In this document: positions 7,914 through 11,847 of the stretch, piece after piece
Numbering within the stretch: position 1 is the first letter of the stretch
How the letters are laid out: each line of letters starts with the position of its first letter
DNA from: a virus
Reading direction: 5' to 3' (one strand)
IMG/VR virus record: IMGVR_UViG_3300031977_000690
Coordinates: 1 to 24,600 of that record
DNA: 24,600 nucleotides
Translations under genes and position numbers: made by a program
The notes under the pieces: generated by a model
Told to the model about the DNA's origin: nothing
Seen by the model: the letters and a program-made list of their open reading frames with translations, nothing else
Databases searched by the model: none

Positions 7914-8492
7914 ATGCCAATTACATTCGGATCAAGTGACAACGAGGGAAGCGGCGTATACATCCGCGGAAACCTACCGCAAAACCGCTGGTGGGCAAAA
8001 ACGGAGGCCGGCGACGAGCCGATCGACATGGACCGCGGCTTCGCAATCGACATCAAAGACGTCGTCTTCGGATGGCTTCACATCGATGTGGGCGTTCGTG
8101 ACTGGCAGGCGTGGCCCTCGCCTAGTCAACGCACTGAGCGACCAAGCGAAAACCATAAGCAGGGTTTTAGCGTCAACTGTTGGCTCGCTGATGGGCGCGC
8201 TGCAGAATTTTCTGGGAATAGCTACGGCTTGGGACAGTTTATCGCAAAGCTGTACAACAAAGCTGAAGAAATGCCAGAATTCAATCAGGGCAAGGTTCCG
8301 GTCGTACAAGTAACGTCGACAACACCTGTCGTCGTTGGCAAGGGAACGTCGTATGACGTTGGCTTCAACATCCGCACATGGATCGATAAGCCCGCGGCGG
8401 ACGCAGCACCGGCGGCACCGGTTGAAGCGCCTGCACCTGCACCGGCGCCTGCAGCGGCACCCGCAGCCGAAGGAAATAACTTCGGGTTCTAA
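7914..8492 (+). CDS. Probable ssDNA-binding protein
   Basis: AGGAG precedes the ATG at 7914. The 192-residue protein has a beta-rich N-terminal domain (about 1-150, with GVYIRGNLPQNRWW, FGWLHIDVGV and GFSVNCWL) and then a disordered Ala/Pro-rich linker (about 155-183). It ends in EGNNFGF, a terminal aromatic tail like those of phage T7 gp2.5 and bacterial SSB, although less acidic. A folded domain, a Pro/Ala linker and a short terminal Phe tip next to a recombination exonuclease and ahead of the primase-helicase fit an ssDNA-binding or annealing protein. The assignment is by architecture and context, since no signature OB-fold motif can be confirmed by eye. Confidence 0.6.
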   Translation: MPITFGSSDNEGSGVYIRGNLPQNRWWAKTEAGDEPIDMDRGFAIDIKDVVFGWLHIDVGVRDWQAWPSPSQRTERPSENHKQGFSVNCWLADGRAAEFSGNSYGLGQFIAKLYNKAEEMPEFNQGKVPVVQVTSTTPVVVGKGTSYDVGFNIRTWIDKPAADAAPAAPVEAPAPAPAPAAAPAAEGNNFGF

Positions 8493-8493
8493 C

Positions 8494-9096
8494 ATGATCT
8501 ATCTCAGCGGCAAAAAGACGGAATGCACAAACCAAATAGGCGTAATGCTTAGCTTTAATGCTGGTAAACAGTCTACAGTTGGGCACAGTCTTTTTGCCGC
8601 TGATAACGGATGCTTTGTGCAGGCAGATAAATACAGCAACGATGGCTTTCTTGCTTGGCTTGATAAGTTAGATCGTGAAGCTTGCCTGTTTGCCACAGCA
8701 CCTGATGTGGTTGGTGACGCAGCCGCAACAAAAGACAGAGCTTACCCAATGCTTCCGCGCATACAAAACTTAGGATTTAAGGCTGCCTATGTCTGCCAAG
8801 ATGGTGAGTTACCTGAGACAGTTGAGTGGTCAAAGTTAGACGCAATATTTATTGGCGGCAGCACAGAGTGGAAACTGAGCCAAGCTGCTGCCGATCTTGT
8901 GGCGGAAGCTAAACGCAAAGATAAATGGGTGCATATGGGTAGAGTGAACAGCTTTCAACGCATGCGCCTTGCCGCTGCAATCGGCTGCGATAGCGTGGAT
9001 GGAACTATGTTGGCGTTTGCGCCAGATATAAATAAAGCAAAGCTAGACCAATGGCTTTGCTGGTTAAACGAGCAGCCAATGCTCAATATGCTGTAG
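8494..9096 (+). CDS. dpdA: DpdA/TGT-like DNA base transglycosylase (7-deazaguanine insertion candidate)
   Basis: This 200-residue protein keeps the tRNA-guanine transglycosylase active-site order. ADNGCF (Asp37) matches TGT DSGGF, APDVVGD (Asp71) the second base-contact Asp, VCQDG (Gln102) the Gln, and FIGGST (Gly121-Gly122) the Gly pair. GCDSVDGT supplies the nucleophile, probably Asp169. The TGT zinc site (CxCxxC...H) and C-terminal domain are absent, as expected for a short DNA-acting relative. Known phage DpdA proteins replace guanine in DNA with preQ0 or related 7-deazaguanines and protect against restriction. I chose the ATG at 8494 because the longer frame back to 8335 overlaps the previous gene. 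No strong Shine-Dalgarno is present. The transporter gene follows after nine bases. Leu and Ala codons (TTA, CTT, GCT) look less host-adapted than in the neighbours, hinting at transfer. DNA rather than tRNA as substrate is inferred. Confidence 0.78.
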   Translation: MIYLSGKKTECTNQIGVMLSFNAGKQSTVGHSLFAADNGCFVQADKYSNDGFLAWLDKLDREACLFATAPDVVGDAAATKDRAYPMLPRIQNLGFKAAYVCQDGELPETVEWSKLDAIFIGGSTEWKLSQAAADLVAEAKRKDKWVHMGRVNSFQRMRLAAAIGCDSVDGTMLAFAPDINKAKLDQWLCWLNEQPMLNML

Positions 9097-9105
9097 GAGG
9101 ATAGC

Positions 9106-9618
9106 ATGAAAAAATGGATTTACTTAGCGGGCTATATTGGGACGATACCTGCAGCAAACTGGATGATCGGTAATGTCGGCACGTTCTGCATCTCTGATGG
9201 CCCATGTATGATCCCAGTTGGATTTGGCATGACAGCGCCTAGTGGTGTTTTAATGGTGGGCGCAGCTTTGGTTCTACGTGACCAAGTGCAAGAACATCTT
9301 GGGACACAGTGGTCATTAATTGGCATCCTTGCGGGCGCAATTTTGTCTTATCTATTAGCTGATCCGTTTATTGCCATTGCTAGCATTGTAGCGTTTGGCG
9401 TTTCAGAGCTTGTGGACTTTGCTGCATACACCTACTTGCGTGAGCGAGGTCGAGCTTTTGCTGTTGCTGCGTCAGGTTTAGTTGGTGCAGCAATGGACAG
9501 CTTGGCTTTCCTATACATTGCTTTCGGATCGATAGCTTACATAGAGGGTCAAATATTTGGAAAGCTTGTTATTAGCTTAATCGCCGCGATTGCGATCAAA
9601 TTCGCCATAAAAAAGTAG
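9106..9618 (+). CDS. yhhQ: VUT-family (YhhQ-like) queuosine-precursor transporter
   Basis: This 170-residue membrane protein has about five to six hydrophobic helices and the family pattern: AANWMIGNVG near the N-terminus, MTAPSGVLMVGAALVLRDQVQEHLG (split here by the second helix), ILSYLLADPFIAIAS, AFGVSELVDFAAYTYLRERGR, and AMDSLAFLYIAFGS. YhhQ proteins import preQ0/preQ1 in E. coli. AGGAGG (9095-9100) precedes the ATG. Placed directly after the DpdA-like gene, it should supply 7-deazaguanine base from outside the cell, because no preQ0 synthesis genes (folE, queD, queE, queC) are in the window. It is slightly shorter than bacterial members (~220 residues). Family membership is strong; the transported substrate is inferred. 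Confidence 0.85.
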   Translation: MKKWIYLAGYIGTIPAANWMIGNVGTFCISDGPCMIPVGFGMTAPSGVLMVGAALVLRDQVQEHLGTQWSLIGILAGAILSYLLADPFIAIASIVAFGVSELVDFAAYTYLRERGRAFAVAASGLVGAAMDSLAFLYIAFGSIAYIEGQIFGKLVISLIAAIAIKFAIKK

Positions 9619-9651
9619 TAACAAATGTTATAACGGCGCAGAGGGAAAACA

Positions 9652-11847
9652 ATGTCAGAGGCATATTTTAACAAGGTATTAGATGGCGCGGTACACGACG
9701 TCATTGCGTCCATGAAGGGCGGCAGAAACGAAAACCTAAACAAAGCAGCATTCGCGATCGGGCGCCACGCGCACCTATCACCGGCAAACACAGACAACGC
9801 GATCCTGCAGCTACACACAGCCGCACGACAGATCGGCCTAAAAGACTTCGAGATCAAGTCGACTATTGGATCGGGCTTTAAGCGCGGGGCGGAAAATCCT
9901 AAGCAGCTCGAAAACTCGGATATACAACCGTATATACCAAGTGAACTGGAGCGCTTGGTTTCACGGTTGGCCAGTAAAGACTTAATCGTGCGTGACGAAG
10001 AGACACGCCAAGATAAGATAAAAAAGGCACAGGATACGTGGGAGCGTGCTGTGCCTATCTCACGAGAAAACAAGGACGCGGTACGTCCCGCGCTGCTTTA
10101 CCTTAACTCACGCGGCCTTGCAGCGTCGTCTGCAGTTGGCGTGGCAAAGTTTAGCGCAAGCACATACGACGGACCCGCGATCGTCTTTGCAGCGACCGCA
10201 CCGGATGGCACAATCGAGGGCGTGCAGAGCGTGCTCTTGACGCCAGAAGGCAAGAAGCGCGAAGTAAATGGCATTAGCAAATACTCGCGGGGCGTCATTG
10301 CCGGAAATGTAATGCAAATCGGTGATATACAAGGCGATAAGCCAATCTGCATTGTCGAAGGCCCAGAGGACGCGCTGAGCGTGCGTCAGGCTACGGGTGA
10401 CGATGCTGTGGTGGTCTGCACCTTCGGAAAGGCTGGGATGTCTACATTCGTGCCGCCACGCGCCTCAGACGTAACGCTATGCGCCGACCCTGACCTTGAC
10501 GTAGAAAAGTGTGCCGACGTCCTACAGGGCGACGGGTCAACGACGCTGCATGTCGTTCGCTTTGACCAGCTCGGCGTCGACAATGTGAAAGACGCAAACG
10601 ACTACCTACGCGAGGCCGGCAAGGACAAGCTGCGCGAAGCATTAGCGTACGCAAAACCGTACGCACAGGCAGTGCAGGAGATAAAGCAAAGCGAGCGCAA
10701 CTGGCCAACAGAGTTTGAGGTTATCGATCCCGCGCTGATCCCAAAGCGTCGCTGGGTTTATGGCAAGCATTACATCCGCGGATACGTGAGCGTGCTTGCA
10801 TCGATGGGCGGCGTCGGTAAGACATCAATGCAGGGGGTCGAGGCAATGGCCATCGCGACAGGCTTACCGTTATTGGAAGAGCCAATACACGAACCCGTGA
10901 ACGTGTGGGTCATTAATGGCGAAGACCCGCTTGAAGAGATGCAGCGCCGTTTTGCTGCAATCATGATCCACTACAACATCAAGCCAGAGCAAATCCAAGG
11001 CAAGCTATTCTTGGACGCGGGCCGCGACTTGCAGATCCAATTTGCAAAGCAAACGCGCGATGGCATCCTAACTGATGAAGACATGCTGCAGTTCATGGTC
11101 GACGAGATTAAGCGCAAAAACATCGGGCTAGTAATCATCGACCCGTGGGTTGGCTTCAACGACATTAACGAAAACGACAACGTCGCAATGAACGCAGCGG
11201 TCGCAGCCGCGCGCTGGGTCGCAGACCAGACCGACGCAGCGGTCGTTTTGACGCACCACATTCGCAAAACAAACGGTGAAGACGCAACGGTCGACAGCGT
11301 CCGCGGCGCTGGATCGCTGATCGGCGCAGCCCGTGCGGCGCGCATCATCAACAAGGTTAGCCAAGAAGATGCGCAGAAGCTGGGCGTGTCGGAGCAGGAG
11401 AGCCTCGGCATATTCCGTGTCGACGATGGTAAGGCAAACCTTGCCCCGCCCGCAGCGAACGCTCTGTACCGCCGTATGCACGGCGTGGAGTTGCCGAACG
11501 GTGAATATGTGGGTGTCTGCATACCGTTCAAAATGCCTGACCTGTTCGACGGTGTCAGCGCCCGTGACGCACGCGACGTGCAGCGCCTGATCGGAGCAGC
11601 GGCCGAGCGTCAGGAGCCAATGCGACTAGATGCACGCGCAAAGAATTGGGCGGGCAACGCAGTCGCGGTGCAGCTCGATCTGGATGTCGAAAAGAAAAAC
11701 GAAAAGTCACGCTGCAAAGCGATCCTGAAAAAGTGGATCGACACAAACGTGCTGAAGGTCGAAGAGTGGCCAGATAAACGTGCAGGGCGCGACGTGCAAT
11801 GCGTCGTCGTTGGAGAGTGGATCAGCGCATCGGAGTTGGGTACATGA
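9652..11847 (+). CDS. Primase-helicase-like replication protein (TOPRIM + RepA/AAA ATPase)
   Basis: This 731-residue protein has three parts. The N-terminal region (about 1-130) is helical and may be a zinc-less primase-associated domain. A TOPRIM domain (about 150-330) has Glu235 in IVEGPEDALS and the DxD in CADPDLD near 278. The C-terminal RecA-fold ATPase (about 365-620) has Walker A MGGVGKTS at about 385-392, VINGEDP near 421, Walker B LVIIDPW near 494, and a sensor-like VVLTHHIRK. It should unwind DNA and possibly synthesise or regulate primers at the phage fork. Fused TOPRIM-RepA proteins are common in phages and plasmids; whether it primes is uncertain because no CHC2 zinc finger is visible. 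The ATG has GAGGG upstream. Its TGA overlaps the next ATG. Confidence 0.85.
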   Translation: MSEAYFNKVLDGAVHDVIASMKGGRNENLNKAAFAIGRHAHLSPANTDNAILQLHTAARQIGLKDFEIKSTIGSGFKRGAENPKQLENSDIQPYIPSELERLVSRLASKDLIVRDEETRQDKIKKAQDTWERAVPISRENKDAVRPALLYLNSRGLAASSAVGVAKFSASTYDGPAIVFAATAPDGTIEGVQSVLLTPEGKKREVNGISKYSRGVIAGNVMQIGDIQGDKPICIVEGPEDALSVRQATGDDAVVVCTFGKAGMSTFVPPRASDVTLCADPDLDVEKCADVLQGDGSTTLHVVRFDQLGVDNVKDANDYLREAGKDKLREALAYAKPYAQAVQEIKQSERNWPTEFEVIDPALIPKRRWVYGKHYIRGYVSVLASMGGVGKTSMQGVEAMAIATGLPLLEEPIHEPVNVWVINGEDPLEEMQRRFAAIMIHYNIKPEQIQGKLFLDAGRDLQIQFAKQTRDGILTDEDMLQFMVDEIKRKNIGLVIIDPWVGFNDINENDNVAMNAAVAAARWVADQTDAAVVLTHHIRKTNGEDATVDSVRGAGSLIGAARAARIINKVSQEDAQKLGVSEQESLGIFRVDDGKANLAPPAANALYRRMHGVELPNGEYVGVCIPFKMPDLFDGVSARDARDVQRLIGAAAERQEPMRLDARAKNWAGNAVAVQLDLDVEKKNEKSRCKAILKKWIDTNVLKVEEWPDKRAGRDVQCVVVGEWISASELGT

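Follow-up and report, generated by a model that had tools for sequence, protein, structure and literature searches.

A pair of adjacent genes in a viral DNA stretch of 24,600 nucleotides (positions 1 to 24,600 of IMG/VR record IMGVR_UViG_3300031977_000690; hereafter the window) probably forms an acquired, import-fed DNA-modification cassette. The 24.6-kb record is linear and represents a fragment of a tailed phage, with genes for terminase, portal, lysis, and recombination. The first gene encodes a predicted short base-exchange enzyme related to DpdA and to tRNA-guanine transglycosylases (TGTs), and the second a membrane transporter. Both open reading frames (ORFs) lie where the initial annotation of this DNA had placed them, and a GGAGG Shine-Dalgarno sequence precedes the transporter ORF. 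The cassette is composed as follows:

8494..9096, + strand: predicted short DpdA/TGT-like base-exchange enzyme (200 aa, phrog_15826; from AlphaFold 2 (AF2), Foldseek, hhalign, and invariant columns)

9106..9618, + strand: VUT/QPTR (YhhQ-like, COG1738) membrane transporter (170 aa; from Vut_1, TIGR00697, YhhQ profile match, and AF2)

8495..9632, no strand assigned: inserted cassette (from gapped alignments to relatives L168 and L240, and lower G+C content at third codon positions, GC3)

In the mechanism we propose, the VUT/YhhQ-type protein would import a free 7-deazaguanine base, most likely preQ0 and possibly preQ1, into the infected cell, and the short DpdA-like enzyme would then exchange guanine in phage DNA for the imported base. 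Residues Asp37, Asp71, Gln102, and Gly121-122 would hold the base, Asp169 would attack the sugar to form a covalent intermediate, and the modified phage DNA would resist host nucleases, presumably evading restriction. We infer DNA as the target because of the relationship of the enzyme to DpdA, the operons it shares with classical DpdA and preQ0 genes, and the missing zinc region of tRNA-acting TGTs.

Structure prediction, run against TGT and DpdA, yielded a TGT-type (beta/alpha) barrel, in line with the DpdA-like exchanger proposed in the initial annotation. The first-ranked Foldseek match of the AF2 model (predicted local distance difference test, pLDDT, 92.1; predicted template modeling score, pTM, 0.90) was the DNA preQ0 insertase DpdA (7ui4; E-value 4.4e-5, TM-score 0.50 by query length), followed by a mix of TGTs and other triosephosphate isomerase (TIM) barrels. 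The first 50 rows returned by VIA-align were all TGTs at Z ~15 over 193 residues (Z 15.2 at 2.9 Å), a list that cannot rank DpdA against TGT because TGT entries are so many, and the matches in a viral structure library include phage queuine transferases, Sonali gp87 among them. From these models, the enzyme is predicted to be a compact TGT-fold protein; it belongs to a short DpdA-like clade with a TGT-like Gln and no zinc site.

The pocket and nucleophile positions that the initial annotation had read in order (Asp37 to Asp169) are indeed invariant, or nearly so, across 79 aligned relatives: D37, D71, Q102, G122, K127, H147, N152, D169, and G170 do not vary, and G121 and R150 are each kept in 78 members. 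Family motifs include H147-x-G-R-V-N152 and K127, with D169 as the putative nucleophile. The motifs follow the same order as in E. coli Tgt (Tgt/enzyme pairs DSGGF/DNGCF, FDEC/APDVV, IQG/CQDG, VGG/IGG, and DMFDC/DSVDG), an equivalence judged from sequence motifs rather than from superposed coordinates, and we take the Zymomonas TGT counterparts of the pocket and nucleophile to be D102, D156, Q203, G230, and D280. The TGT zinc motif C-x-C-x-x-C, represented in E. coli Tgt by CDCYTC at 302, occurs in none of the 79 members, which agrees with the absence first noted in the single protein. The other peculiarity noted at that stage, a very short enzyme, stands as a description (200 aa), but shortness turned out to be common to a whole widespread clade.

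Profile comparisons linked the enzyme family to phage DpdAs as well. With hhalign, the family matched the DpdAs of 9g, CAjan, and Sonali (probability 91, E-value 9e-7, 139 columns), a DpdA profile reached enzyme family members at 1.4e-5, and iterated profiles from Pseudanabaena phage Pam5_30 joined the short family and the classical DpdAs. PHROGs places the enzyme in phrog_15826, of unknown function, and sequence searches of the PDB with the enzyme gave chance matches only. A conserved DpdA His has been described at "position 196", absent in DpdA2 (Hutinet et al., PMC6884629), with the numbering basis unstated: residue 196 of 9g is the His of VHGFGITS, aligned with the invariant H147 of the enzyme family, and if "position 196" is the His at the Gln203 site, the short clade has Gln there.

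The second ORF was assigned to the VUT family, as in the initial annotation, based on a Pfam Vut_1 match above the cut-off (3e-10; 41.1 bits, cut-off 27.2) and a complete predicted protein with an ECF-S-like fold. Its match to TIGR00697 ("queuosine precursor transporter"; 9.8e-10) scored 38.6 bits, below the cut-off of 50.95, which on sequence grounds indicates a family relationship and not an equivalog call. A profile built from 50 phage VUTs matched E. coli YhhQ (hmmsearch) with the core motifs aligned, and the AF2 model (pLDDT 94.2) showed six long helices with S-components of energy-coupling factor (ECF) transporters as best structural matches, at Z values up to 10.7 that are modest for a helical protein. 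E. coli depends on YhhQ for preQ0 transport, and bacteria use genes of this family in queuosine salvage for tRNA (PMC5372724), with substrate specificity varying across the family and fusions to bacterial TGT known (PMC11130926). Such roles, along with a TGT fold bearing a tRNA-TGT-like Gln102, would be expected if the enzyme were a phage TGT placing the imported base at wobble positions of host or phage tRNA, and hence tuning translation instead of modifying DNA. We consider this unlikely: relative to E. coli Tgt, the enzyme is missing ~170 residues, among them the region of the zinc site, and has no such site, its nearest solved structure by Foldseek is a DNA-acting DpdA, its profile link is to phage DpdA and not to E. 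coli Tgt, and it shares operons with classical phage DpdA and preQ0 genes.

Genomic context independently ties the enzyme family to 7-deazaguanine metabolism. Two collection scans returned at least 550 viral matches versus 67 in a one-genome-per-species set, and the viral members were clustered at 90% identity into 55 clusters. Within 2 kb of the enzyme, 36 of these clusters had only VUT, six only QueC, QueD, or QueE, one both, and 12 neither, nine of the latter being cut short by contig ends. Enzyme and VUT genes usually overlap, the distance between them was zero in 26 of 37 clusters, and Que genes directly adjoined the enzyme in five of the six Que-only clusters. VUT and Que genes avoid each other (Fisher p 0.0035; 6e-5 without short-flank loci), and this extends beyond the immediate neighborhood: VUT was found nowhere in the five Que-bearing records tested, QueC in none of 23 VUT-bearing records, and QueD in none of the five tested. 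VUT lies upstream of the enzyme in 52 redundant cases and downstream in 29, hence the association survives changes in gene order. In three loci (L074, L091, and L093), overlapping genes instead make up QueC-QueE-QueD-enzyme operons, in records that contain neither VUT nor a classical DpdA, and in L053 the enzyme is flanked by FolE and QueD and accompanied by a classical DpdA. On a quick enzyme tree, the six Que cases fell into six separate placements, at least three of them by well-supported branches, corresponding to at least three, and most parsimoniously six, switches between import and synthesis. The presence of either VUT or QueC/QueD/QueE beside the enzyme thus indicates that its substrates are 7-deazaguanines, supplied by import or by synthesis. 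The window itself belongs to the import type: as first noted, preQ0-synthesis genes (Que/FolE) are absent from its 24.6 kb, and neither QueD nor QueC was found in a 36.5-kb relative carrying the same cassette. On balance, we favor a scenario in which phages repeatedly swapped QueC/QueD/QueE for an importer beside a minimal zinc-free enzyme, yielding a mobile cassette whose DNA camouflage would be conditional on external 7-deazaguanine, taken up from the environment or from the surrounding community.

Some neighborhoods hold further genes. At L067:10001-11680 (also in L068 and L070), the short enzyme forms a trio with QueC and VUT, with QueD and QueE not nearby; a QueC substrate such as 7-carboxy-7-deazaguanine is possibly imported here, or QueC is used differently. 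In several loci, the enzyme has a PAPS-reductase-like PP-loop gene in its vicinity, in some cases together with VUT (L014:6658-7575, L019:9358-10401, and L026:6648-7484), and these may possibly provide a further base-tailoring or sulfur step.

The L067 trio would also be compatible with a repurposed enzyme that acts on a protein or nucleotide in the manner of Cap10, for instance to counter a deazaguanylation-based defense. TGT folds are known to have been repurposed (PMC11996544), and the Cap10-CdnD structure (9ntn) is among the Foldseek matches of the enzyme, albeit ranked below DpdA and many TGTs. On the other hand, all 79 members keep the transglycosylase pocket and nucleophile unchanged, and no CD-NTase (cGAS/DncV-like nucleotidyltransferase) was noticed beside these genes, in neighborhoods that were not scanned specifically for CD-NTases. 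The ORFs neighboring the cassette in the window are recombination and replication genes, and a PADLOC scan gave no usable match for the enzyme. We regard a Cap10-like activity as very improbable.

Several observations weigh against an import-fed enzyme acting on phage DNA. The evidence for DNA over tRNA or protein is indirect, scans against Pfam and NCBIfam gave the enzyme no family name, and hhalign found no match between the enzyme family and the single E. coli Tgt. At the site of the apparent His of classical phage DpdAs, the clade keeps the Gln of tRNA-acting TGTs. In addition, Sonali, phiG7, R29Z, and L053 carry the short enzyme beside a classical DpdA, and because some phages carry both, the job of the short enzyme may differ from that of its classical counterpart. 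The selection of family members was biased toward the query enzyme, and the majority of members in bacterial genomes lack both VUT and Que genes in their vicinity. The idea that VUT-less copies are carried by preQ0-making hosts was not supported (hosts with QueC, 4/10 versus 17/31; p 0.48).

The cassette occupies a variable slot in the recombination operon. Two relatives, L168 and L240, have flanks ~87–92% identical to the window and lack exactly 8495-9632 (~1,138 bp), with ~38–47 nt bearing a hairpin in place of the cassette. These empty-site hairpins (L168:5944-5981; L240) share the same architecture with different stem sequences and no T-run. The same cassette is present at the same place in L003, and in most relatives the slot is either empty or filled by other genes, namely a sigma-factor-like or an HNH-endonuclease-like gene (translations judged by eye). 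The slot at 8494-9632 is an insertion hot spot receiving sigma-like, HNH, or enzyme-VUT genes. GC3 is 0.45 in the enzyme gene and 0.42 in the transporter gene, versus ~0.59–0.65 in the neighbors, so that the acquired cassette of deviating codon use suspected in the initial annotation is now confirmed by an exact empty site as well as by composition. The slot is bounded by the following genes:

7914..8492, + strand: left flank, recombination operon gene (Ala/Pro-rich tail; weak family match only; kept as neighbor in relatives)

9652..11847, + strand: right flank, primase/helicase-type replication protein (PHROG primase/helicase matches; anchor for the empty-site test)

The position of the left-flank gene suggests a putative single-stranded DNA-binding protein. 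Within the same phage lineage, L208:3407-4638, located on the downstream side of the primase gene, holds a different, Pam5_30-type TGT-like gene that overlaps a VUT gene, and represents a second, independent enzyme-transporter pair. A lower GC3 and recent acquisition, together with VUT proteins being widespread in bacteria (control genomes), would also be seen if the pair were host-derived cargo, i.e., queuosine-salvage genes carried as auxiliary metabolic genes with no role in phage DNA. We regard this as the least probable of the explanations considered, given that the enzyme clade is mainly viral by the counts above and that a second, different TGT-VUT pair occurs in the same lineage. The window yielded no preQ1 riboswitch, other RNA, or tRNA. 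Portal matches suggest a loose affiliation with phages of several groups, among them Sinorhizobium phage phiM5, and the habitats of related records suggest a marine origin for the phage.

Divergent members of the enzyme family extend beyond this setting. In Escherichia phage phiG7 (L017:7851-8494), SHIN8, and Vibrio phage R29Z (L020), a divergent short enzyme is encoded next to the DNA polymerase gene; these phages also hold the preQ0 pathway and a classical DpdA, and the split of the short enzyme over two annotated ORFs in phiG7 and SHIN8 suggests a broken or frameshifted copy. Another divergent member (288 aa, ~36% identity) is encoded on Pseudomonas aeruginosa plasmid pF061_2 (L247:7794-8660) with no VUT nearby. 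Such a member was found in 135 Pseudomonas plasmid records, and the pF061_2 copy has genes for a uracil-DNA glycosylase and a DNA methyltransferase in its neighborhood, which leaves base modification of plasmid DNA as a possible function. Longer members, mostly 250–300 aa, are found in many Burkholderia, Caballeronia, and Paraburkholderia genomes (L129-L154), in neighborhoods that contain neither VUT nor Que genes; QueC was detected in all seven host genomes of this group that were tested.

The cassette suggests an explanation for the base supply of DpdA phages without synthesis genes, namely that they bring along their own importer. Mycobacterium, the genus of M. smegmatis, is reported to be without any preQ0 or queuosine genes. 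Beyond phage biology, a base-exchanging enzyme of 200 residues would make a handy compact tool to put 7-deazaguanines into DNA.

Classical phage DpdAs (9g, CAjan, and Sonali gp87) share with the window enzyme the TGT-type fold and the Asp-Gly and Ile-Gly-Gly motifs, and are found with preQ0 genes. They are 296–317 aa long with an apparent His at the Gln102 site, whereas the short clade, at ~200 aa, has Gln, adds the H-x-G-R-V-N motif, and is usually transporter-fed. Closer counterparts are found in isolated actinobacteriophages: Mycobacterium phage StevieRay gp53-gp54, Arthrobacter phage Aoka gp38/gp40, and Rhodococcus phage ReqiPine5 gp04-gp03 encode the same enzyme clade (44–45% identity) with VUT adjacent or one gene away, in reversed gene order relative to the window, while Sonali, also an isolated phage, has a preQ0 operon. 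The StevieRay, Aoka, and Sonali relatives are annotated as "DpdA-like tRNA-guanine transglycosylase", but the enzyme-VUT pair is not recognized as a system in these phage records because VUT is annotated as a hypothetical or membrane protein. The E. coli preQ0/preQ1 transporter YhhQ/QPTR, at 221 aa versus 170 aa for the phage transporter, shares with it the R/T-D, A-S-x-x-A, and G-x-x-x-D-(S/T) motifs and a core profile match. Cap10 of type IV CBASS (cyclic oligonucleotide-based antiphage signaling systems) has the same TGT-family fold (9ntn) but binds a deazaguanylated CD-NTase (PMC11996544) and acts on a deazaguanylated protein within a defense operon; no such partner was noticed beside the window enzyme. 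The "singleton DpdA" phages (Group 3 of Hutinet et al.) likewise have DpdA without synthesis genes, and a host-made or exogenous, imported base has been proposed for them (PMC6884629, PMC8306585); one phage, MED16, has modified DNA with DpdA alone (PMC8306585). Phage YhhQ was seen with "no correlation" to phage group (PMC6884629), whereas VUT is tightly linked to the enzyme in the clade of the window. That 2019 survey left the choice between host-made and imported base open, and the tight, repeatedly re-formed VUT link makes the import route testable. We found no report of the enzyme-VUT pair, or of its exchange with synthesis genes, in the open-access literature, subscription papers being outside this search. 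Overall, while the enzyme type itself is known, the short DpdA-like clade and its recurrent swap of import for synthesis appear to be new.
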